This document shows, one piece after another, positions 7,122 to 58,386 of a stretch of DNA of 64,000 nt. The translations under genes were made by a program, and so were the position numbers. Origin of the DNA: Acidobacteriota bacterium (lineage in GTDB: Bacteria > Acidobacteriota > Terriglobia > Terriglobales > Acidobacteriaceae); NCBI GenBank assembly GCA_021803035.1, contig JAJZME010000059.1:62001-126000 (forward strand). Direction: 5' to 3'. The notes beneath the pieces are model-generated. The model was not told where the DNA came from and searched no databases. It was given only the letters and a program-made list of their open reading frames with translations. How positions within the stretch are numbered: position 1 is the stretch's first letter; each line of letters starts with the position of its first letter.

Positions 7122-7778
7122 TTACCGGCCGCAGGCAGCGAATACTGCGGTCAATCCCTCTTCCGGCTCGGGGCGCACGCGAAAGTCTGCGTGGGCTTCC
7201 GCAAGAATGATGCGGCCGTCCCGCGCAACAACGTAGGTGGCCGGCAGCGGCAGCCTCCAGCTTGGCTCACCGTTGATGAAAGGCAGGTTGACCAGGATGG
7301 ACAGGAAGTAATCGCGGTGGTACTCGGGAACCGTGTAGGCAAGCCTGAACTGTTCGGCTACCGCGCATTCGCGATCGGTAAGCACAGGAAAAGGGAACCC
7401 ATGCTGGCCAACCATGAAGTCGCTCTGCCGCTCCGTCTGCGGCCCAATGGCCACCAGCAGCGCGCCGCACTCGCGAAGGCGGCCATACAGGTCGCGCCAG
7501 GCTTCCAACTCGGTGATGCAATAGGGGCACCAGCGGCCGCGAAAGAACTTGATGACCAGCGGGCCGAGCGCGAGCAGGTCCGCACTGCGGACCAGCTTGC
7601 CGCGGGAATCCTTGAGCGCGAACTCGGGCGCCAGCGCTCCCACGGGTAAAATCCGCTCCTCGATGCCGGATGCAAAAAGCTCCGCAATGGCGCGCTCGCC
7701 CACGGCAAGCCGTTCGGCCTGCACCAGATGACGCGTGCTGGCGGTGATCTCGTCGAGTTGGTCCTGCAGTTGGATCAC
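7122..7778 (-). CDS. Peroxiredoxin-like (AhpC/TSA superfamily) thiol protein
   Basis: 218 aa. An N-terminal helical segment (about 45 residues) is followed by a thioredoxin-fold redoxin domain with the active site FFRGRWCPYCITELEAW, giving a CxxC at about residues 83-86. Family members reduce peroxides or act as disulfide reductases in the cytosol. It sits 56 bp downstream of the PduT-like gene on the same strand, so it is probably cotranscribed with the PduS/PduT electron-transfer pair. That association is unusual and could mean a redox-protective or cofactor-recycling role for the compartment. It could also be an unrelated neighbour. Complete, normal length. Confidence 0.8.
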   Translation of the reverse strand: MIQLQDQLDEITASTRHLVQAERLAVGERAIAELFASGIEERILPVGALAPEFALKDSRGKLVRSADLLALGPLVIKFFRGRWCPYCITELEAWRDLYGRLRECGALLVAIGPQTERQSDFMVGQHGFPFPVLTDRECAVAEQFRLAYTVPEYHRDYFLSILVNLPFINGEPSWRLPLPATYVVARDGRIILAEAHADFRVRPEPEEGLTAVFAACGR

Positions 7779-7834
7779 ATTTCAGCTTAATTGAAATTGC
7801 AGGGACTCACAGACGGCGCACGCCAAGCAGCATG

Positions 7835-8395
7835 TTAAATATATTCCCGGAACAGCTCCGGTGAAGGCGCGGGAATGACGCCGCGGCCCACAAGCATCCC
7901 GTCCTCCGCGGCAGCCCTGGAGCCGGCATCGACTGCGGCCTGCACGCTCGACACATCGCCAGCCATCAGCACAAAGCCCTTGCCGCCCAGCGCCATGGCC
8001 AGGTGAATACGCAGCAGCGTCACGTTTGCCGCCTTGATAGCCGCGTCGGCCACATCGATGATGCTGGCCGCAGAAAACGTCTCGACGACTCCGATCGAAC
8101 GTAGGTTCTTGGGATCGATCTCCACCGATTGTGAGATGGCCGCCAATACAGTCGGATGCACGCGCGCAATCTGCCGGCGCTCGATCAGCGACGCGCCAGC
8201 CACCGCCGCGCCCGCCAGCAATGCAGCCTGGACCGAGGTCACGTCGCCTGAAACCACGATGAGAAATTTGCCCGAGCAGATGCTGCGCGCCAGCAAAAGC
8301 TGCACGGACCCGGCCTTCAGCATGGTGTCCTCAACCAGGAATCCCGTGGCCACGCTCGACAACTCGATGAGTCCGATGGAATTGATTTCAGGCAC
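7835..8395 (-). CDS. pduT: BMC-T shell protein with two BMC domains, PduT-like
   Basis: 186 aa made of two BMC domains in tandem (residues about 5-85 and 98-180), forming trimers that act as pseudohexamers in the compartment shell. The segment SICSGKFLIVVSGD places Cys40 where PduT has the cysteine (CPGKFL) that coordinates a [4Fe-4S] cluster at the trimer's central pore. The second domain ends VIPAPSPELFREYI, as PduT does. The gene lies 27 bp after the PduS-like gene, its expected electron-transfer partner. An iron-sulfur cluster in the pore would pass electrons across the shell. Assignment by motif and context is strong; the cluster itself is inferred. Confidence 0.93.
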   Translation of the reverse strand: MPEINSIGLIELSSVATGFLVEDTMLKAGSVQLLLARSICSGKFLIVVSGDVTSVQAALLAGAAVAGASLIERRQIARVHPTVLAAISQSVEIDPKNLRSIGVVETFSAASIIDVADAAIKAANVTLLRIHLAMALGGKGFVLMAGDVSSVQAAVDAGSRAAAEDGMLVGRGVIPAPSPELFREYI

Positions 8396-8422
8396 TTCGT
8401 TTGCTCCTTCTGTATTGCCGCC

Positions 8423-9760
8423 TTACGCCTCGATCGTGATGGCATCCGTACCCACCGTCACCATGCCATCCATGCTGGCATGGATGCGCGCACCCAGCTT
8501 GCCCGCTTCGGGCGCGGCCAGCAGATCGCCCGTTCGCACCCGGTCTCCGCTTTTGACCACCGGCGCCGCCGGCGCTCCCGCATGCTGCTTCAGCAGTATC
8601 TTCACCGAGCGCGGCGCGAAGGCGTAATCCACCAGCGGGCCGGTATTGTTGAACTCGCCCAGGCCGAGCCGCGCAATCAGCCGGCGCATCGGCACGCGCC
8701 GGAACTCCGCCATCGGATGCGGCGTGATTGACTCCGGCGAGCCCTTGAACGTCAACCCGCGCTCGCGCGCCATCGGCTTCCATTGCACGCAAACACTCTT
8801 CGGGTCCAGATCCTCCGGACAGGCGTACATGGTGCACAGGTTACACTCGCAGCAGTAAAGCGTGGAAACCATGGCGTCGGCGCCCACCTGGAAGCCCAGC
8901 GATTGCATGGCCCGGTGCGGCTCGATGGGGTGGCCCAGCAGGAACCGCGGGCAAAACTCCGTGCAAAAGCGGCACTGGTCGCAGGAGGAGCGCCCGATGC
9001 GCTCGACGTGAATCCAAGGCGCATTATGACGGCGGATCAGGTTGTGCGTGGACGGCAACACGATGATCCCGCCGGTCGTCTTGGTCACCGGAATGTCCAG
9101 CCCCGCCGCCGGCTTGGCCATCATCACGCCACCCAGCAGCACACCGAAATCAGCCACCGCCGGGCCGCCCGCGGCCTCAATCACCTCGCCAATTGTGATG
9201 CCCACCGGAACCCGCACTGTAACCGGCGTGCGCACCGCTCCGGCCACGGTCAGATATTTGTGCGTAACCGGCCGGTCGAGGCCGATGTTCATCAGCGTTT
9301 CCACATTGGCGACCACCGTGTCCACATCCTTGGGCAGTCCGCCAGGCGGAATCACGCGGCCTGTCACCATGTGCACCAGGATGAACTCATCGCCGGCCGG
9401 ATAGACGTCGGGCAGTGGCACCACCCGCACACCGGCAGGCGCCTGCCGCTCCATGGCCTCAATGATCTCTTGGTATTTCTCCTTGATCCCGATCACACCT
9501 TCGCGCGCGCCCACAAGCTCCATCACCATGCGCAAACCGCGCAGAAACGGCTCCGAGTGATGCAGCAGCAATTCCTTGTCCTTGTGCAGCAGCGGTTCGC
9601 ACTCGGCGGCGTTGGCAATCACCATCGAAACTTTGGTCCTGAGTTTGACTGCGGAGGGAAAGCCGCCGCCGCCCGCGCCCACGATCCCCAGTTCTTCCAC
9701 GCGCTCTACCGAGGGGCTCAAGTGCGGCATTTCTCCCGAGCTGTCCGCTTTTGACGTCAT
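8423..9760 (-). CDS. pduS: PduS-like RnfC-family electron-transfer flavoprotein
   Basis: About 445 aa from the ATG at 9760; a TTG at 9778 would add six residues. The N-terminal Rnf-C/NADH-binding region has GIVGAGGGGFPSAVK. An SLBB-like middle (GITIGEVIEAAGG) is followed by two ferredoxin-type cysteine groups (SCDQCRFCTEFC near residues 260-270 and CCECNLCTMYAC near 303-314) and a C-terminal lipoyl-like domain. PduS oxidises NADH and can reduce cobalamin; in loci without a B12 enzyme, as here, it more likely recycles NAD+ inside the compartment through the PduT pore cluster. It is the first gene of the minus-strand BMC transcript and is divergent from the acetate kinase gene. Confidence 0.9.
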   Translation of the reverse strand: MTSKADSSGEMPHLSPSVERVEELGIVGAGGGGFPSAVKLRTKVSMVIANAAECEPLLHKDKELLLHHSEPFLRGLRMVMELVGAREGVIGIKEKYQEIIEAMERQAPAGVRVVPLPDVYPAGDEFILVHMVTGRVIPPGGLPKDVDTVVANVETLMNIGLDRPVTHKYLTVAGAVRTPVTVRVPVGITIGEVIEAAGGPAVADFGVLLGGVMMAKPAAGLDIPVTKTTGGIIVLPSTHNLIRRHNAPWIHVERIGRSSCDQCRFCTEFCPRFLLGHPIEPHRAMQSLGFQVGADAMVSTLYCCECNLCTMYACPEDLDPKSVCVQWKPMARERGLTFKGSPESITPHPMAEFRRVPMRRLIARLGLGEFNNTGPLVDYAFAPRSVKILLKQHAGAPAAPVVKSGDRVRTGDLLAAPEAGKLGARIHASMDGMVTVGTDAITIEA

Positions 9761-9797
9761 ATTCAGACTCTCTATCAAACTCTTCCAGAAATTCCCA

Positions 9798-9827
9798 TTG
9801 ACTCTGACCGAAACTATGGAATATCAT
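9798..9827 (+). promoter_or_regulatory. Candidate sigma-70 promoter of the plus-strand BMC operon
   Basis: TTGACT (9798-9803) and TATCAT (9822-9827) are separated by 18 bp, 26 bp upstream of the acetate kinase ATG. They lie in the 93-bp divergent gap between pduS and ackA. A minus-strand TTGACG (9846-9851 read in reverse) with a weaker -10 lies in the same gap, so the two promoters probably overlap and could be controlled together. Confidence 0.45.
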
Positions 9828-9853
9828 CCAACTTCAGTCAGAATCCGTCAACA

Positions 9854-11056
9854 ATGAAATGTTTAATCCCAAATATCGGCAGCACCTCCTTCAAGTATCG
9901 GGTCCTGGATATGCCGGAAGAGAAGGTGCTGGCACAGGGGCGGGTGGAGCGGATTGGTCAGCCGGGGGGTGAATGCGCCGATTATCCCGCCGCCATCCGC
10001 AAGTGTCTGGCTGAGATTGCCGGCCCGGGCAAGCCGCTGGCGAGCCTGAGCGAGATTGGAGCGGTCGGCTTCAAAGCCGTTCACGCCGGTCCGTTGAACG
10101 ATTCGCAGATTGTTGATGACAGGTTCCTGGCCGCAATGGAAGAGTTCACCTTTCTGACGCCGGCTCATAATCCCCCCTACATCGCGGCCATGCGCGCCTT
10201 CCGGCAGGAGTTGCCCGGTGTTCCGCTGGTCGCGGTGCTGGAGACCAGCCCCTACCGGCACATGGATGAGGCCGCTACCACCTACGCCGTACCCTACGAG
10301 TGGCGGCGCGATTTCGGGATCCGCCGCTACGGATTTCACGGAGCCAGCCACCGCTCGGCCAGCGAGCGCACCCGCGCCCTGCTCGGCGGCAGCGACATTC
10401 GCCATATCTCCTGCCATCTCGGCGGCAGCTCCAGCGTGGCGGCGTTTCGCAACGGCGTGGCTGTGGAAACGAGCTTCGGCGCCTCGCCGCAATCCGGCCT
10501 GCCGCAGAACAATCGCGTAGGCGACATCGACGCCTTCGCCGTGCTGCACATGATGAAGAAGCTCGGCCTCGACGCGGACGAGATGGCGGAGTTGCTGGGC
10601 AGCAAATCGGGCCTGGCCGGCGTCAGCGGCACCAGCGGCGACGTGCGCGACATGGCGGAAGCGGCCGCGGCAGGCAATCATACGGCGCAGCTTGCGCTCG
10701 ATCTTTTTGTACGCTCCATCCGGCATTATGTGGGCGCCTTCATGCTGGAACTGGGCGGACTGGACGCCATCACGTTCTCCGGCGGCATCGGCGAGAACAG
10801 CATCGAGATTCGCGCCGGCGTGCTCAAGGACCTGGCCGCTTTCGGCATCGAGCTGGACGAAAACAGAAACAAGACCATCAAGGGCGAGGGGCCAATTTCC
10901 ACGGATAAGTCCGCGGTGAAGATTCTTGTGGTCCCCGCAAACGAAGAAATCATCGTGGCGCGCGAAACCGCAGAGGTTGCGTCACGCGCTCAGTCTCCCA
11001 CCCTTTCCGTAAACAGCACGGAAGGGATGGGGCACCCACGCGCAGTGGTGAGTTAG
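9854..11056 (+). CDS. Acetate/propionate kinase-family acyl kinase, divergent active site
   Basis: 400 aa of the ASKHA acetate kinase family, which makes ATP from acyl phosphate. Conserved parts: N-terminal Asn in IPNIGSTSFK, RYGFHGASH (158-166), the Arg of NNRVGD (221), GGIGENS near 306 and ANEEIIVARET near 375. Deviations from usual acetate kinases: the GHRVVHGG segment reads GFKAVHAG (72-79), so the usual Arg is Lys; FDTAFH reads LETSPYRHM (129-137), so the usual Asp is Glu; HLGNGAS reads HLGGSSS. A 20-residue tail follows the normal end. First gene of the plus BMC operon; it should take the acyl phosphate from PduL. The changes suggest a non-acetate acyl phosphate (lactyl or glycolyl would fit) rather than loss of function. 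Confidence 0.88.
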   Translation: MKCLIPNIGSTSFKYRVLDMPEEKVLAQGRVERIGQPGGECADYPAAIRKCLAEIAGPGKPLASLSEIGAVGFKAVHAGPLNDSQIVDDRFLAAMEEFTFLTPAHNPPYIAAMRAFRQELPGVPLVAVLETSPYRHMDEAATTYAVPYEWRRDFGIRRYGFHGASHRSASERTRALLGGSDIRHISCHLGGSSSVAAFRNGVAVETSFGASPQSGLPQNNRVGDIDAFAVLHMMKKLGLDADEMAELLGSKSGLAGVSGTSGDVRDMAEAAAAGNHTAQLALDLFVRSIRHYVGAFMLELGGLDAITFSGGIGENSIEIRAGVLKDLAAFGIELDENRNKTIKGEGPISTDKSAVKILVVPANEEIIVARETAEVASRAQSPTLSVNSTEGMGHPRAVVS

Positions 11057-50999: not shown

Positions 51000-51330
51000 T
51001 CATGAATTAGCAACGCGAACCAATGGTTCAGGAGCCGCATTGTCTCTAAAGGAAGAGAGTGCACGGCACGAATCCCTCTTAATCAGTTCCGTGGGAATAG
51101 TAACACTCTGAGGAGGGAGTGCCGGATCGGCAATGCGGTTGAGAATCATCTCTGCCATCTGCTTGCCTATCTGCTCAGGAAATTCGCGAACGGGGGTTAG
51201 CCGCGGATAAAGAAGCGCGCCAATCGTATCATCACATCCTGCAACACTGATGTCGCCGGGAATCGTCAAGCCTTTATCTCGCACCCCCTTGTAGACGTCG
51301 TGTGGAACTTTGCGGCGGCTTTTGGCGCGG
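51000..51330 (-). pseudogene. LacI-family regulator remnant (C-terminal part)
   Basis: The frame ending at 51000 reads DVYKGVRDKGLTIPGDISVAG, GALLYPRLTPVREFPEQIG and PTELIKRDSC, the conserved C-terminal third of LacI-type effector domains. Upstream of about 51330 (GSRAKSRRK) the homology ends, and no helix-turn-helix is present before the KdpD gene at 51454. A truncated pseudogene at a junction is the best reading. Confidence 0.7.
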
Positions 51331-51453
51331 GATCCAGAGGGAGCCTCGCCATGCCCTTGCAAAGCACAGCTTCCGCCCCAGTCGTGGAAGGCCCGCGGCC
51401 CGTACAAGCCAATAAAAGCCGTTCCCGGCATCCGCAACTTTCGGCCCCGGTTG

Positions 51454-52581
51454 TTAAGTTGTGCGCCGCAGCGGCTTCTGCATCGGCACCACCTGCACGG
51501 TTACATCGCGCACTTCGCTGAGGAAGCGGTTCAGCACCGACCCGTGCAGTAAAATGTCCCAGCGCGAGCGGATGGGCTGCCCGAAGACCACGTGTGAGAT
51601 GTTCTCCTGCTGCGCAAAGCGAATCAGCGCGTTGGACACGTTGCGGTCGGTGAGCGAAACCACCTGCGCGCCCAGATCGCGCGCCATGCGCCGGTATTCT
51701 TCAAGCCGCTGAAAAGCTTCCGGATCGCTGTGCCCTTTGTCGTCCGGCCGTGTCACATACACGACATACCAGTTGGTGGCCAGCCGGCCCGCAATGCGCG
51801 CGCCCACGCGCAGCAGCCGCTCGCTGCCCGGGCGCGTGCTCAGGCAGACCATCACTTTTTCGGGAATCGGCGCCTGTTCCAGCCCCTGGGTACGGCGGTA
51901 CTCCGCGGCGCGGTTGCTTACCTGTTCGGCGGTGACGCGCAGCGCCAGTTCGCGCAGCATGTTCAGGTTGCCTTTGCGGAAAAAGTTGGCCAGCGCCTGT
52001 TCCACTTTTTCCTGGGGATAGATCTTCCCCTGGCGCAGCCGCGTGCGCAGCTCGTCCACCGTCAGATCGATGTTCACCACTTCGTCGGCGCGCTTTAAGA
52101 AGTTGTCGGGAACGGTCTCGCGGATGACGATGTTGGCCGAGCGGTTGACGGCGTCGTTGAGCGTCTCCAGATGCTGAATGTTGACCGCGGTCATGACGTT
52201 GATGCCCGCGTCGAGCAGCTCCAGAACGTCCTCGTAGCGTTTGCGGTTCTTGCTCCCCGGGACGTTGGTGTGGGCCAGCTCGTCCACGATCACGGTGTTG
52301 GGATGGCGGGCCAGAATGGCGTCCACATCCATCTCTTTCAGGTTCACGCCGCGGTAATTGATCACGCGCTGGGGAATGACCTCCAGGTCGCGGATCCGCG
52401 CTTCGGTCTCCTTGCGGCCGTGCGATTCCACAAGGCCGATCACCACGTCGATGCCTTGCTGATGGCGCATCAGGTAGGCATCGTTCAGCATCAGGTAGGT
52501 TTTGCCCACGCCGGCTGCGGCGCCGATGTAAATGCGCAGCTTGGCGGGCTGCGGTTTCTTTTCCAGCGTGATCTCCGCCAT
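51454..52581 (-). CDS. KdpD N-terminal sensor domain plus universal stress domain, without kinase
   Basis: 375 aa. The KdpD N-domain (residues about 13-222) has the Walker A GAAAGVGKTYLML (21-33), ESHGRKETE and VIVDELAHTNVPGSKNRKR. A Usp domain follows (245-370). In ordinary KdpD these precede four membrane helices and a histidine kinase in one chain; here the chain stops and the kinase-like part is a separate gene ending just upstream (3-bp gap). It would sense K+, turgor or cyclic di-AMP in the cytosol. No kdpABC genes lie in the window. Confidence 0.9.
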   Translation of the reverse strand: MAEITLEKKPQPAKLRIYIGAAAGVGKTYLMLNDAYLMRHQQGIDVVIGLVESHGRKETEARIRDLEVIPQRVINYRGVNLKEMDVDAILARHPNTVIVDELAHTNVPGSKNRKRYEDVLELLDAGINVMTAVNIQHLETLNDAVNRSANIVIRETVPDNFLKRADEVVNIDLTVDELRTRLRQGKIYPQEKVEQALANFFRKGNLNMLRELALRVTAEQVSNRAAEYRRTQGLEQAPIPEKVMVCLSTRPGSERLLRVGARIAGRLATNWYVVYVTRPDDKGHSDPEAFQRLEEYRRMARDLGAQVVSLTDRNVSNALIRFAQQENISHVVFGQPIRSRWDILLHGSVLNRFLSEVRDVTVQVVPMQKPLRRTT

Positions 52582-52584
52582 CGT

Positions 52585-53991
52585 TCAGCCCGCCTCTACC
52601 GGGTGATGCACCTCGGTGTTTGTCGCAATGGGCAGGGTGAAACGGAAGGTGGTGCCGTGACCGAGGCGGCTTTCCACGGCAATCTGCCCGCCCAGCGATT
52701 CCACAAGCCGCCGCACCAGAGCCAGCCCCAGGCCCGTGCCGCGCTCCGATGACGTGCTGAAGCGGTCGAAGATCGAGCTCAGCCTCTCGGCCTCAATACC
52801 GCGCCCGGAATCGCGCACTGTGAACTGCACAAAACTCTTGATCTCCTCGGCCGCCAAAAGAATTTCGCCCTCAGGCGGAGTGTACCGCAAGGCATTCGAG
52901 AGCAGATTATCCAGGATGGAGCGCAGCGCGCGGCGGTCGGCGTTGACCGCCGCCAGATCCGCGTAGGCGTTGACTTCCATGCGCACGTGGTTCTTGGCCG
53001 CCTCGTCGCAGTAGCGGTCGCGGGCTTCGCCCAGGGCCTGCAGCGGGCGCAGGCGCTCCAGCTTGAACTCCCGCTTGCCGGTGTCCAGCTCCGCCACTTC
53101 CACCAGGTCGCTCATCAGGTCGTCCAGGTTCTCCGCTTCCTTGCAGGCGGAGGCCGCCAGTTCGGCCTGGAGCGGCCGCAGATCGCCGCCAAAGCCCTGC
53201 GTCAGCGCATAGAGCCCGCGCCGCAACTGCAGTAGCGGATCGCGCAGCTTGCGGCTGGCCACGGCAATGAACTGCGTCTTGAAGCGGTCGGTATCCTGCA
53301 GGGTGGTCACGTCCTCCAGGGTGGTCACGGCGCCCAGCAGGCGGCCTTCCGAGTCGCGCATGGGCGTGGTCCGCAGCCGGTAGCTGCGCTCGCGGTCGCC
53401 GATACGCATGGGCAGCATGGAAGCCTCGCCCTCGGCCGCCACGGCCTTTTGCATGGAGACGGCGTCGCGAATGGCGCTCAGCATCTTGGCTCCGCCGGGG
53501 GTGTTGGCCAGTGCCATGCGGTCGGTCGCCGCTTCCCCCAGCAGTTCGGCCGCGGCCTGGTTCACCCGCAGCACGTGCCCCTTGCCGTCGGTCACGATGA
53601 TGGGCTCGAAGATGGATTGCAGCACCGCGTCGGAAAGCTGAAATTCCATCTGCCGGCGGCCGGCTTCCGTGTCCCGCAGCTCGCGCAGCCGCACCGCAAT
53701 CCGGTTCAGTTCGCTGGCGATGATGCCGAAGTCGTCGTGGCCGCGCAGGCTCACGCGGTGCTCCAGGTTTCCCTGCGCGATGCGGTTCGCGTCGCGGGCC
53801 AGCGTGTGGATGGGCCGCAAAACAAAGTAGATGGTTGCCAGCTCCACCAGCAGCGCGGCCACCACAAAAGTAGTCGCCAATCCGAGCTGCCCGGCCGCCG
53901 CCAGGGTCTTATGGGTGGCAAGCACCAACCCCACCGTCAGGCAGGCAAGCAGGACACAGCCGAGGATCAGACGTTGGGAGAAATTGAGCAT
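52585..53991 (-). CDS. HAMP-PAS sensor histidine-kinase-like protein lacking the phospho-accepting histidine
   Basis: 468 aa: two N-terminal membrane helices (8-30 and 36-58), HAMP (about 58-110), PAS (about 118-230), then a dimerisation helix and an HATPase domain. The ATPase boxes are good: NLLSNALRYTP (362-372), DSGRGI (394-399), IFDRF and GTGLGLALV (418-426). The H-box, usually VSHELRTPL, reads ASRKLRDPL (245-253), so the phosphorylated His is Arg247. It therefore cannot autophosphorylate in the usual way. It may act as a partner or scaffold for the KdpD N-domain protein encoded immediately downstream. Promoter expected in 53992-54208, which holds no gene. Confidence 0.9.
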   Translation of the reverse strand: MLNFSQRLILGCVLLACLTVGLVLATHKTLAAAGQLGLATTFVVAALLVELATIYFVLRPIHTLARDANRIAQGNLEHRVSLRGHDDFGIIASELNRIAVRLRELRDTEAGRRQMEFQLSDAVLQSIFEPIIVTDGKGHVLRVNQAAAELLGEAATDRMALANTPGGAKMLSAIRDAVSMQKAVAAEGEASMLPMRIGDRERSYRLRTTPMRDSEGRLLGAVTTLEDVTTLQDTDRFKTQFIAVASRKLRDPLLQLRRGLYALTQGFGGDLRPLQAELAASACKEAENLDDLMSDLVEVAELDTGKREFKLERLRPLQALGEARDRYCDEAAKNHVRMEVNAYADLAAVNADRRALRSILDNLLSNALRYTPPEGEILLAAEEIKSFVQFTVRDSGRGIEAERLSSIFDRFSTSSERGTGLGLALVRRLVESLGGQIAVESRLGHGTTFRFTLPIATNTEVHHPVEAG

Positions 53992-54208: not shown

Positions 54209-55756
54209 TCAATGCGCCGACTTGCCGGCATGAGCCAGCAATAAAGCCGGTTTGTTCGGCTTTGCGGGCGGGGAAGGCATGTGGCAGACACTGAAGGATC
54301 CCCGCTGATACGGGCAACTCATTCCCGCAGGCGGCAGTCCATGGATAACCGTCCAGGAAACCACCGGATACTCCCTTTTGAGCTGACGGAACTGTGCCAT
54401 CGAAAAGTGATTCAGGCCGTAGGTCGCATTGGTCATCTGCTTCCATTCCACCGCAAGATTGGGAAAGAGCGACACCACGCCGCCATCCTTGTAGTAGTCG
54501 GCCAGCGCCGAGCGTTCCGCGATGGCGCGAAAGCCATGCCGGTCCACGACCGGCTCCAGGAAGTAGCGGGAATCGAGAGCAAAGACCGCGTCGACGGGTG
54601 TATTGCGCCGGATCCAGAGCAGCGTATTGATCCATGGATTGCTGCTGGTCGACGCCGGCAGTTCGATTTGCGGGCTATGCGGATAGGCCTGCCGGGCCGA
54701 GATAAACATGCCCAGGGCCAGCGGCACGCTGACCGCCGCAGGCACCCACGGTCGCCCTTTGCCAAGATACTCGCCCATGACGCCGGCGAGAAGAAGGACA
54801 AAGATCAGGGTGATGAGATCGAAGGACCGCAGCGGCTGGATGCGCACGAACATCTGCAAATCGGGAGACGAGCACAGCACCGCGGCGGCCGCAATCGAGA
54901 TCAGACCAAAGGGGATGAGGACAAAGCTGATTTCCTTGAAGGCCGGCTTTGTATTGCGAAGATCGGCTTTCCAGAACCACGCCAGAATGGCCAGCGGCGC
55001 AAGAAGCCCCAGCCAGTCATACCAGGTCCAGTTGTAAAGAAAGAAGTAGCCTCGTGAGAAAAGCGCTTCGCGATAAGGTCCGGTGGCTGGCGTAAAGGTG
55101 AATCCTGAGGGCAGGATGCCGAGGATGGAGGCCATCGCCGGCACGCGCGCGCGGACCCGCGCCTTCTTGAGTTCCGCCACCCACATCACGCCGAGCAGAA
55201 ACACCAGGTAGGTCGCCATCTGCGGATGGACCAGAAAGGTTAGGAGCGCGGCAACTCCGGCGCGCACAGGGCGTCGCTCCAAAGCGCTGGCCAGCGCGAA
55301 CAGCGACAGCGGCGTGGCAAGCGATCGGGCCGTCAGGTAACGATCCACCAGCAGCAGGCCGGTGTTGGCCGCCGGCATGGTCATAACCGCGGTGAAGACC
55401 AGCAGCGCGCTCCAGCGGGCGCGGGCTGACGAAAAACATGCGGCGACGAGCATCCAGGAGCAGGCGAGCGTGGCAAACAGAGTGGCGACATACCAGACAA
55501 AAAATGTCCAGTCCATGGACATGCGAGTCAGCCATCCGGTGGCGGCCACGATGGGACCAAACAGCGAAAGATGCGCGTGCGAGAGAAAGAATGCCCGCCC
55601 ATAAGGATAAAGATAAGGATGACGAAAATATCTCGCCGCAGGCAGATAAATCTCGCTGTCTCCAACGCCCAGATGGTAGCCGTTAATGACCAAAGCCGCG
55701 GCGGTCAGAGCTAAAAGACGAAGGATGGGCAAACGCCTATCCGGGGATTGGCTCAT
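54209..55756 (-). CDS. Large polytopic membrane protein, GT-C/DUF6798-like, paralogue 1
   Basis: 515 aa from the ATG at 55756, which overlaps the glycosyltransferase stop (ATGA); the frame continues upstream but inside that gene. About ten membrane helices. The N-terminal loop has NGYHLGVGDSEIYLPAARY, with the acidic residue after the first helix typical of GT-C polyprenyl-phosphate sugar transferases. The C-terminal soluble part has NPWINTLLWIRRNTPVDAVFALDSRYF. Similar in layout and several blocks (YNWTWYDWLGLLAPL vs YRWTWYEWLGALAPL) to the protein encoded at 56683-58386. Probably acts on a lipid-linked sugar supplied by the adjacent GT2. Confidence 0.7.
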   Translation of the reverse strand: MSQSPDRRLPILRLLALTAAALVINGYHLGVGDSEIYLPAARYFRHPYLYPYGRAFFLSHAHLSLFGPIVAATGWLTRMSMDWTFFVWYVATLFATLACSWMLVAACFSSARARWSALLVFTAVMTMPAANTGLLLVDRYLTARSLATPLSLFALASALERRPVRAGVAALLTFLVHPQMATYLVFLLGVMWVAELKKARVRARVPAMASILGILPSGFTFTPATGPYREALFSRGYFFLYNWTWYDWLGLLAPLAILAWFWKADLRNTKPAFKEISFVLIPFGLISIAAAAVLCSSPDLQMFVRIQPLRSFDLITLIFVLLLAGVMGEYLGKGRPWVPAAVSVPLALGMFISARQAYPHSPQIELPASTSSNPWINTLLWIRRNTPVDAVFALDSRYFLEPVVDRHGFRAIAERSALADYYKDGGVVSLFPNLAVEWKQMTNATYGLNHFSMAQFRQLKREYPVVSWTVIHGLPPAGMSCPYQRGSFSVCHMPSPPAKPNKPALLLAHAGKSAH

Positions 55757-56559
55757 GGAAGACTCTCCAGGGACCGCGATATTGACATGCCCCGCGCGTT
55801 TTGCGGCTTTAGTTGCGAGGGCGGGAAGTTGAAGATCGGTTTTCGGTACAGTCCAATACGCGCCGCCACGAAATCTGCCGTTGTCTTCAGCACGCCGCAG
55901 CCGTAGACAATGCTGCGCCGCAGATTGATCGAAGAGGCTTCGGGAAAGTAACGTGTCGGGCAGGAGACTTCGCCGATGCGCGCTCCGAGATATACGCATT
56001 GCGCCAGAAGCTGATTGTCGAAGACGAAATCTTCGGAATTGGCGTTGAAGGGCAGAGAGAGCAGCATTTCGCGGCTGTATGCGCGCAAACCGGTGTGGTA
56101 TTCCGAGAGCTTCGCGCCCAGGGCCAGATTCTGTGTCAGCGTGAGGGCGCGATTGGCGATGTATTTATAGCGGGGCATGCCGCCTTTCAGAGCGCCACCG
56201 CCCAGGATGCGCGAACCGAGCACAATGTCGTACACCCCATGCGCAATCATGCTCGCCATCGGTTCCACGAGCCGCGGAGAGTACTGGTAGTCCGGATGCA
56301 GCATGACAACCACATCGGCGCCCGCATCCAGGGCCGCCGCATAGCAGGTCTTCTGGTTTCCGCCGTAACCGCGGTTGCGCTCGTGCACGTGCACCTGCAA
56401 GCCCAGGCGGCGGGCCAGCACGGCCGTTGCGTCCGCGCTGTAGTCGTCCACCAGGATGCAGGTATCGACCTCGCCGGCGATCTCCCGGAATGTCTGCTCC
56501 AGGGTCCTTTCCGCGTTGTACGCAGGAAGAACGACAACCACCTTCTTGTTATTAATCAT
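55753..56559 (-). CDS. GT2 glycosyltransferase (polyprenyl-phosphate sugar synthase-like)
   Basis: 268 aa GT-A fold: VVVVLPAYNAERTLEQTF (N-terminal Rossmann), ILVDDYSADAT (first Asp), MLHPDYQYSP in place of the usual DxD context, and a C-terminal YRKPIFNFPPSQ region. No membrane helices, so it would make a lipid-linked sugar from a nucleotide sugar at the cytosolic face, as dolichol-phosphate mannosyltransferase-like enzymes do. It lies between two paralogous membrane proteins in one operon. Confidence 0.85.
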   Translation of the reverse strand: MINNKKVVVVLPAYNAERTLEQTFREIAGEVDTCILVDDYSADATAVLARRLGLQVHVHERNRGYGGNQKTCYAAALDAGADVVVMLHPDYQYSPRLVEPMASMIAHGVYDIVLGSRILGGGALKGGMPRYKYIANRALTLTQNLALGAKLSEYHTGLRAYSREMLLSLPFNANSEDFVFDNQLLAQCVYLGARIGEVSCPTRYFPEASSINLRRSIVYGCGVLKTTADFVAARIGLYRKPIFNFPPSQLKPQNARGMSISRSLESLP

Positions 56560-56682: not shown

Positions 56683-58386
56683 TCATTGTTGTACTTGCGG
56701 TTTCTCCTTCGGCTGGCGCAGTCTTTCATCCATCTTCCGGAATTGGAAAACAGACAACGCTTCGTCGCGATCTCGGCCCTTTACCCGCTCATGTTGCAAC
56801 AGTTTCGCGCCCCGCAGATCACGATTCCGGATGCCGGATACGGCTGCATCGAAATGCGAACTCTGGTGACTGGAAACTGGGGGAATCTGGCAAACAGAAA
56901 GCAGACTGTTATGCCACTTACACTTTAGACCTTTCGGCGCCGGATAGGACACCAAAACCCAATTTACGCCGAACTCTCTCTTCAGCCGTTCAAAATCCGC
57001 CAGTTTGAAATGCGTCCAGCCGGCCTGGGCCTGCACCTCGCGATACCACACCGGAGCAAGCTCCGGAACCTGCGTCACAACCGCCGTATCTTTAATGCCA
57101 TCTGCAAGTTGGCTGCGTTCTGCCAAAGCACGAAAGCTGTGGTAATCCTCACCGGGTATCGCCATGTAATACGGATTGAGCGCGAAGTAAGCGTTTGTCG
57201 GAGTGTTGTGCCGAACCCACGCAAAGGCCTGCAACCAGGGGTTGCCCGGCTTGGTCCATGGCATTTCAAAGTGCGGACAACCCTGAAACTCCACCTCCTG
57301 CGCGCTGAGCATCGTTCCGTTCACCAGCAGAAGGAAAATGGCCCACGCCCAGATGCGCCGCCTGAGCAGGTACTGCCCGATAAGGCACCCCGCGAACAGC
57401 GCCATGAAATAGTAAACCAGTTGCAGATAGCGCATGGGCTGGAGGGGAACAAGCCGAATCCAGGCCGGCGGCGTCAGCATCACCACGGCAACCGCCTGCT
57501 GGAAAAGCCCGTAGACAAATACGGCAAAGGCAAAACGGGACAAGAGGGTTTGGCCGCGCTTCTCCGCCAGCCGCCACAGCAGCCAGAACAGAAAAAGCGG
57601 AGCCAGCGCGCCCAGCCACTCGTACCACGTCCACCGGTACAGGAAAAGATAGCGGCGCGTATCCAGGGCCTTCAGCCAGTCGCGGTTCGGCCCCTCAAAG
57701 ACCCAGGCCAGCGGGATCGCGGCAGCCGCGCCGCGCGCAAAAGCCGTGCGCAGATTGCGCAGCCACACATGCACCGGCTCCTCCAGCGCCGCGGCCAGAA
57801 AGAAGCTAAAGGAGATGCCCATCGCGGCCATGATGGGATGCACCGCAAACGCCGCCAGCAGCAGGGGAACAGCCTCCCAGCGCTTGCCCGCCGTGATCCG
57901 TGCCACCGCCGCCAGGACGAGCGCCGCAGCCAGATTGCGCGGAAGAAAATTCTGGTCGGCCAGGTAAATTGCCGTTCCCGCCACGGGAAGCGTCAGCATC
58001 GCGGCCACCATGGCCAGGCCGCCCCAGCGGGCCCGGGCATCGGGGAAAAAACGCCCGGCGATGCTATGGCAGGCCCACATGATCAGAAAAAGCGAGAGCA
58101 ACTGCCCCAGCAGCTCCGCCCACGGTACCGCAATGTGGGTGAAACGAACGAATTGGGCTACCACGCCATCAAAGACTGTAGCTTGCATCTGAAGCCGGAA
58201 AAATTCGGCATCGTGCGGGTAAAGAGCGGGGTGTAAATCGGAGTTGATCGCGGAAAGATAAACACCATCATCTTCATAGCCGGGGTGGTAACCCATTACG
58301 GCAAAGGCAATCAGGGTAAACAGGAGAACGGGCAGAATCTCACTGAGAAATTTGTTTCGCTTCAAACGAATGATCCCCGTTTTCAC
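56683..58386 (-). CDS. Large polytopic membrane protein, GT-C/DUF6798-like, paralogue 2
   Basis: 567 aa, about ten helices. First periplasmic loop MGYHPGYEDDGVYLSAINSDLHP has the acidic motif; YRWTWYEWLGALAPLF and NPWLQAFAWVRHNTPTNAYFALNPYY align with paralogue 1. A 55-residue charged tail (from about 512) has no match there and may be readthrough beyond the natural end. It starts the operon with the GT2 gene and paralogue 1. Function unknown; possibly glycan assembly on a polyprenyl carrier. Confidence 0.7.
   Translation of the reverse strand: MKTGIIRLKRNKFLSEILPVLLFTLIAFAVMGYHPGYEDDGVYLSAINSDLHPALYPHDAEFFRLQMQATVFDGVVAQFVRFTHIAVPWAELLGQLLSLFLIMWACHSIAGRFFPDARARWGGLAMVAAMLTLPVAGTAIYLADQNFLPRNLAAALVLAAVARITAGKRWEAVPLLLAAFAVHPIMAAMGISFSFFLAAALEEPVHVWLRNLRTAFARGAAAAIPLAWVFEGPNRDWLKALDTRRYLFLYRWTWYEWLGALAPLFLFWLLWRLAEKRGQTLLSRFAFAVFVYGLFQQAVAVVMLTPPAWIRLVPLQPMRYLQLVYYFMALFAGCLIGQYLLRRRIWAWAIFLLLVNGTMLSAQEVEFQGCPHFEMPWTKPGNPWLQAFAWVRHNTPTNAYFALNPYYMAIPGEDYHSFRALAERSQLADGIKDTAVVTQVPELAPVWYREVQAQAGWTHFKLADFERLKREFGVNWVLVSYPAPKGLKCKWHNSLLSVCQIPPVSSHQSSHFDAAVSGIRNRDLRGAKLLQHERVKGRDRDEALSVFQFRKMDERLRQPKEKPQVQQ

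Follow-up and report, generated by a model that had tools for sequence, protein, structure and literature searches.

The window analysed here, a 64,000-nt stretch on contig C31 of the genome of an Acidobacteriota bacterium (Acidobacteriaceae, a family of soil bacteria), carries two adjacent genes, one for a kinase-like protein of 468 amino acids (aa) and one for a stand-alone N-terminal half of KdpD (KdpD-N) of 375 aa. The 468-aa protein is best regarded as an old pseudo-histidine-kinase and not an error, because its relatives keep a residue other than histidine at the phospho-accepting position, its ATP-binding residues are near-invariant, its ratio of nonsynonymous to synonymous divergence (dN/dS) is low and its dimerisation helices have no other conserved histidine. 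The pair may serve as the sensory part of a three-piece KdpD that steers a histidine-bearing kinase in trans, a reading to which we give a probability of roughly 0.55.

The first-pass annotation of the window described a KdpD N-domain protein and a HAMP-PAS-HATPase protein as separate genes 3 bp apart, and the open reading frames and their coordinates, strand and spacing bear this out. The pseudokinase gene (52585-53991, minus strand) lies upstream of the KdpD-N gene (51454-52581, minus strand), and the two are probably translationally coupled across the 3-bp gap (52582-52584). The pseudokinase gene is delimited by its open reading frame, Pfam matches, orthologues, a structure model and a fold search. 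From N to C terminus, its product comprises two helices read as transmembrane, a HAMP domain (residues 56-104; 53680-53826), a PAS domain (residues 127-231; 53299-53613), a HisKA-like DHp hairpin without its histidine (residues 229-304; 53080-53307) and a HATPase_c domain (residues 352-456; 52624-52938; 103 bits), all encoded on the minus strand. HAMP, PAS and HATPase_c score above the Pfam cut-offs, while HisKA reaches 19.3 bits against a cut-off of 26.9.

The 375-aa protein has the composition of a split KdpD N-half, with a KdpD N-domain (PF02702; 51919-52545, minus strand; 302 bits) and a Usp domain (51514-51861, minus strand; 33 bits) but no transmitter fused to them. It carries Walker-A-like GAAAGVGKT and DELAHTN motifs, and the KdpD N-domain matches the solved structure 2r8r_A (E value 4e-61). 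Its best NCBIfam model, over residues 11-365, is NF038185, 'KdpD-like non-kinase potassium sensor', at 411 bits, below the curated cut-off of 550; the model makes no mention of a pseudokinase partner. No other PF02702 match occurs in the genome.

Residue 247, at the place of the phospho-accepting histidine, is an arginine (codon 53251-53253, minus strand), as the first-pass annotation had it from the letters alone. Alignments to solved structures put Arg247 opposite the H-box of SrrB and CovS, and opposite the tyrosine of the known pseudokinase DivL, which is Y550 in the available text of PMC4211667. A pseudokinase match was present in all 36 genomes searched, the present one and 35 same-genus relatives. 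At 30 same-genus loci (L002-L031, which include the window's own locus, L002, and in part are the same records as in the wider scan of genome contigs), residue 247 is Arg in 27 and Lys in three, and all 30 reading frames are free of internal stops. The wider scan found 116 pseudokinase relatives, of which the best 80 were kept. Among these, the orthologue check proposed with the first-pass annotation returned Arg in 63 and another non-histidine residue in 17 (8 Gln, 3 Glu, 2 Lys, 2 Ser, 1 Ala, 1 Leu), and histidine in 0/80. Hosts include Terracidiphilus gabretensis, Occallatibacter savannae, Acidicapsa dinghuensis, Silvibacterium bohemicum, Paracidobacterium acidisoli and Acidipila rosea. Two genomes from another family, G088 and G095, have Gly at this position in a longer pseudokinase with a 4HB_MCP sensor domain. 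A genome from a third family, G153, was excluded from the counts, as its contig ends just past position 247, with an apparent Ala and a frameshift.

A joint alignment gave the same picture. Of 137 loci, 133 passed the coverage filter, yielding 90 distinct sequences with the window included; position 247 is R in 67, Q in 11, E in four, K in three, G in two and A, S or L in one each. Histidine occurs in 0/90, and tyrosine in neither the 80 loci nor the 90 sequences. The protein therefore lacks the phospho-accepting histidine that defines an active HisKA kinase, and it falls outside the DivL family proper, which has Tyr where these sequences have R, K, Q, E, S, A, L or G. In canonical H-boxes, the +1 residue is Glu or Asp and the +4 residue is the phosphatase Thr or Asn. 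Here, the +1 residue (position 248) is Lys in 88 sequences and Arg in two, and the +4 residue is Asp in 77/90. The H-box stretch is conserved except for position 247 and a few others; when residues 236-304 are ordered by variability, position 247 comes 16th of 69. The search for an alternative conserved histidine in the dimerisation helix, suggested earlier as a possible refutation, found none in residues 230-310; the highest column there is position 267, with 12/90. Columns with histidine in at least 30% of the 90 sequences (27, 78, 139, 335, 445 and 463) all lie outside this region.

The ATP-binding site has been kept. In line with the earlier description, the protein has intact N, G1, F and G2 boxes, and N362, N366, D394, G396, G398 and G422 are present in 90/90 distinct sequences, with G420 in 88/90. 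In five comparisons, whole-gene dN was 0.09-0.13 against a dS of 0.8-1.4, and in the catalytic and ATP-binding (CA) region dN was 0.10-0.14 against a dS of 1.0-1.6 (also five comparisons). The ATP-binding residues and the DHp and CA regions are thus under purifying selection, and ATP binding by the pseudokinase is predicted from the conserved site residues. A structure model of the protein (mean predicted local distance difference test, pLDDT, 74; predicted template-modelling score, pTM, 0.43) shows N-terminal helices, HAMP helices, a PAS fold, a DHp hairpin (helices 229-264 and 273-304) and a HATPase domain; it is a monomer model of moderate confidence, with an ATP-lid pLDDT below 50 and no bearing on complexes. 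A fold search with this model placed histidine kinases on top and DivL at rank 12, and DivL (PDB 4q20) comes first when solved structures are ranked by sequence match (E value 2.6e-31). The 468-aa protein therefore combines what marks a pseudo-histidine-kinase, a kept fold and a conserved loss of the phospho-acceptor.

In the phylogeny, the pseudokinases (78 rows) form one clade with support of 100/98, apart from 18 KdpD C-half kinases, and long branches were flagged. Because they form a single clade, the data point to the histidine having been lost in one old event. A search of plasmids with the G088-type pseudokinase returned a single match at 1e-30, a Parabacteroides kinase that has a histidine in its H-box (SHELKTPI) and adjoins a sigma-54 regulator; no KdpD-N was found among the 18 neighbouring features listed. 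This kinase joins the pseudokinase clade only via a long, flagged branch and was not taken as its histidine-bearing ancestor. KdpD-N matches also occur on plasmids.

The partnership with KdpD-N is nearly fixed. Among the best 80 of 116 relatives, KdpD-N lies no more than 300 bp downstream of the pseudokinase in 77, and at the remaining three the pseudokinase match reaches the edge of the locus. Spacing at the 30 same-genus loci is mostly 3 bp (25 loci), with 4 bp at two and a 1-nt overlap at three, although the overlap at L006 is spurious, because in L105, which is the same record, the KdpD-N match begins 120 bp downstream. The KdpD-N proteins linked to a pseudokinase (28 rows) group in a single clade, separate from the 45 other rows (support 100/100). 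Among the 22 pseudokinase-bearing family genomes, 21 have no PF02702 match other than the KdpD-N beside the pseudokinase; the exception is G079, which has more than one. In that genome, besides the pseudokinase pair, a canonical kdp locus (L090; G079:C1:1881000-1900900) holds two tandem KdpD-N genes and a second histidine kinase. Two different tandem KdpD-N genes also occur at the Acidobacteriota kdp loci L062, L063, L066, L068-L071 and L079, and the weaker-matching copies form a clade of their own (100/100).

Full-length KdpD is one polypeptide with its own histidine. The earlier label of a 'split KdpD' calls for caution: the N-half does stand alone, but the Arg247 protein was rejected as the C-half. 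It lacks the DUF4118 domain that a split KdpD C-half combines with a histidine-bearing HisKA domain, and is instead a HAMP-PAS kinase-like protein of another lineage. The KdpD C-half is evidently a separate DUF4118 kinase, and the third kinase and regulator proposed for checking are both found on contig C4 of the same genome. The protein encoded at C4:32309-33730 is a DUF4118-HisKA-HATPase kinase with a histidine in its H-box (THELRTPL), and so has both C-half features. It is the genome's best match (64%) to a relative's DUF4118 kinase, and its best NCBIfam model is KdpD, matched over the kinase core only and under the full-length cut-off. A KdpE-like regulator (C4:33855-34535; 80% identity) is divergently oriented to it. 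The idea that the genome has no live kinase for the system is thereby excluded, and the earlier proposal of a non-phosphorylating sensor, or one that needs another kinase in trans, is supported, as neither a sequencing error nor an alternative histidine held up. Aligned kinase cores of the pseudokinase and the DUF4118 kinase are about 26-36% identical. A divergent histidine kinase adjoins kdpABC in G018 (L098, 6026-7519), with 29% identity to the present genome's kinase and an unusual H-box, AHDFLTPL.

Genes kdpA, kdpB and kdpC lie together on contig C37, which holds the genome's sole KdpA match (kdpB and kdpC were assigned by family models); as noted in the first pass, kdpABC is absent from the window. 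The 19.9 kb near kdpABC gave no match, at an E value of 1e-8, to the DUF4118 kinase, two KdpE-like regulators, KdpD-N or the pseudokinase. In G088 and G095, all the pieces are gathered on one strand in the order kdpA-kdpB-kdpC-pseudokinase-KdpD-N-DUF4118 histidine kinase-KdpE-like regulator (Pfam was run on the kinase and regulator of G088 only). This cluster provides the strongest functional link, albeit a predicted one, between the pair and Kdp. In G153, kdpC also lies upstream of the pseudokinase.

Comparing genomes with and without the pseudokinase reveals an exchange of neighbours, with the positions of the kinase, KdpD-N and kdpA read from tables by eye. The DUF4118 kinase and KdpD-N were looked for in 15 family genomes that gave no pseudokinase match; 13 hold both, with the KdpD-N match less than 350 bp from the histidine-kinase match in 13/13, and the other two, G063 and G099, gave neither match. 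A DUF4118 kinase at an E value of 1e-50 or better is present in 21 of the 22 pseudokinase-bearing family genomes (in G018 at only 29% identity). In 21/21, the pseudokinase-side KdpD-N is apart from the best histidine-kinase match, by at least 48 kb in eight and on another contig in 13, the latter being draft assemblies and hence weaker evidence of separation. KdpD-N therefore sits with the pseudokinase where one is present, and otherwise with the histidine kinase. The best kinase match lies no more than 3 kb from kdpA in 14 of the 16 (of these 21) genomes with a kdpA coordinate, the exceptions being the present genome and G079. Among 59 same-genus genomes, 32 reach a completeness of at least 90% with a contamination of no more than 5%; KdpD-N and KdpA occur together in 30 of these (in a few as fragments), G063 has neither and G071 has KdpD-N only. 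In a 399-genome sample of the class, 24 of 25 genomes with a pseudokinase (E values up to 1e-60) have a KdpA match versus 270/399 overall, a co-occurrence uncorrected for kinship.

In the three-piece KdpD that we favour, the pseudokinase would bind the KdpD-N/Usp protein and anchor it at the membrane. Through its DHp domain, in a hetero-dimer or hetero-oligomer, it might then shift the KdpD C-half between kinase and phosphatase states, which would tune KdpE and kdpABC. The input would be whatever the PAS, HAMP, KdpD-N and Usp domains sense, possibly nucleotide too. The pair would in this way influence the DUF4118 kinase in trans, with no phosphoryl transfer by the pseudokinase itself, much as DivL acts on CckA or RetS on GacS. 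A bolder version, which we put forward tentatively and at somewhat under even odds, is a three-gene receptor kinase with a soluble KdpD-N/Usp protein for potassium or osmotic signals, a membrane pseudokinase that bears this protein and responds to nucleotide or PAS ligands, and a separate catalytic KdpD C-half. The hetero-complex of pseudokinase and kinase would be obligatory and would govern potassium uptake in many genera of a single family, while the acceptor position could hold almost any residue but histidine.

Several observations weigh against the pair acting in a three-piece KdpD. The 27 same-genus genomes of lower quality are less uniform, with 19 holding both KdpD-N and KdpA, five KdpA only and three KdpD-N only. 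G274, although 99% complete, holds the pair but gave no KdpA match and no histidine-kinase match at 1e-50. In the family genomes with positions read, the pair lies away from kdpABC and mostly beside other membrane-protein genes. In the window, these are a co-directional gene upstream of the pair (54209-55756, minus strand; weak DUF6798 match, 'glycosyltransferase-like' by eye) and a second, related gene (56683-58386, minus strand; weak DUF6798 match, polytopic by appearance), with a GT2-type glycosyltransferase gene between them (55753-56559, minus strand). Among the 70 loci of the wider scan with more than 2.5 kb of upstream sequence, 53 have a co-directional gene like one of the two membrane proteins ending less than 1 kb upstream of the pair. 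This neighbour is the main support for a function of the pair outside Kdp, serving the membrane glycosyltransferase-like genes or another target, and the same gene order recurs in G274 (L269, G274:C9:103000-122900; pair at 7291-10275), with upstream membrane-protein and GT2 genes. We nevertheless consider such a departure from Kdp unlikely, given that 21 of the 22 family genomes have no KdpD-N outside the pair, that KdpD-N is away from the histidine kinase wherever the pair is present, that the pair lies inside the kdp cluster of G088 and G095, and that 17 of the 70 loci yielded no neighbour of this kind (L168, L171, L173, L174, L176, L177 and L179 belong to these). Elsewhere in the window, an open reading frame at 51000-51437 (minus strand) resembles, by eye and without a search, only the C-terminal part of a LacI-type regulator and is apparently a truncated gene.

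The remaining alternatives concern what the pseudokinase itself does. It could be an ATP donor without an acceptor, its ATP domain phosphorylating the histidine of the DUF4118 kinase within a hetero-dimer. The invariant or nearly invariant ATP-site residues and the low dN of the CA region would fit this, but a conserved ATP site equally fits a nucleotide-sensing or structural role; the DUF4118 kinase also has a complete HATPase domain of its own, and the low identity between the two kinase cores makes such a donor quite improbable. We are more doubtful still that the protein works in reverse, as DivL does, with its DHp domain docking phosphorylated or free KdpE, or another regulator, and reporting its state to KdpD-N and the histidine kinase. 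DivL being the top sequence match among solved structures, and the conservation of the H-box stretch around position 247, are consistent with such a reader, yet the DivL match spans the general kinase core, to which histidine-bearing kinases match too. Gene decay or a sequencing error might be suspected from the lost catalytic residue and the HisKA score under the Pfam cut-off; both are refuted and keep a negligible probability. An error at the H-box codon, raised in the first pass, is excluded by the absence of histidine from every relative with a readable position (80/80), and decay by this shared loss, the low dN/dS and the intact same-genus frames.

To our knowledge, few natural bacterial pseudo-histidine-kinases have a known role, with DivL foremost among them. 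RetS of Pseudomonas matches the 468-aa protein weakly (6dk8, E value 6e-12), and its sensor differs. Like the present protein, DivL of Caulobacter keeps the DHp-CA fold with its phospho-accepting histidine replaced (by Tyr); it has neither kinase nor phosphatase activity and works through a second kinase, CckA (PMC4211667). It differs in belonging to the CckA/CtrA cell-cycle pathway, and the accessible part of that paper reports weak nucleotide binding and mentions no KdpD-N partner. In the RetS-GacS system, a kinase-fold protein likewise controls another kinase via hetero-oligomers (PMC9491836). The same source, as far as available, describes an inactive ChrS of Corynebacterium glutamicum that promotes signalling by the paralogous HrrS, but through a laboratory-evolved frameshift in the CA domain and so unlike a natural family of long standing; native ChrS was seen to form heterodimers with HrrS, truncated ChrS not significantly so (PMC9491836).

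On the Kdp side, the closest parallel is the split KdpD of Deinococcus radiodurans, where KdpD-N is likewise its own gene, and the C-half kinase and response regulator form a separate unit in opposite orientation to the kdp genes (PMC5716572). There, however, KdpD-N lies within the kdpBAC operon, and the available portion of the paper mentions no second, histidine-less kinase. Full-length KdpD of E. coli and S. aureus joins the KdpD N-domain and Usp to the membrane/kinase half (PMC2714519, PMC4686210), parts that are separate genes here, and in E. coli the N-half interacts with the C-half (PMC2714519). The literature searched, in which subscription journals are thinly covered, yielded no account of a kinase without its histidine that is paired with KdpD-N.

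In summary, these genomes hold an old, widely kept pseudokinase family whose partner is fixed and for which there is a candidate target, so that the steering of a live kinase by a dead one could be tested on a simple output, kdp expression. The exchange of KdpD-N between two neighbours, the histidine kinase and the pseudokinase, amounts to a natural experiment. If the three-piece reading is true, KdpD signalling can spread over three genes.

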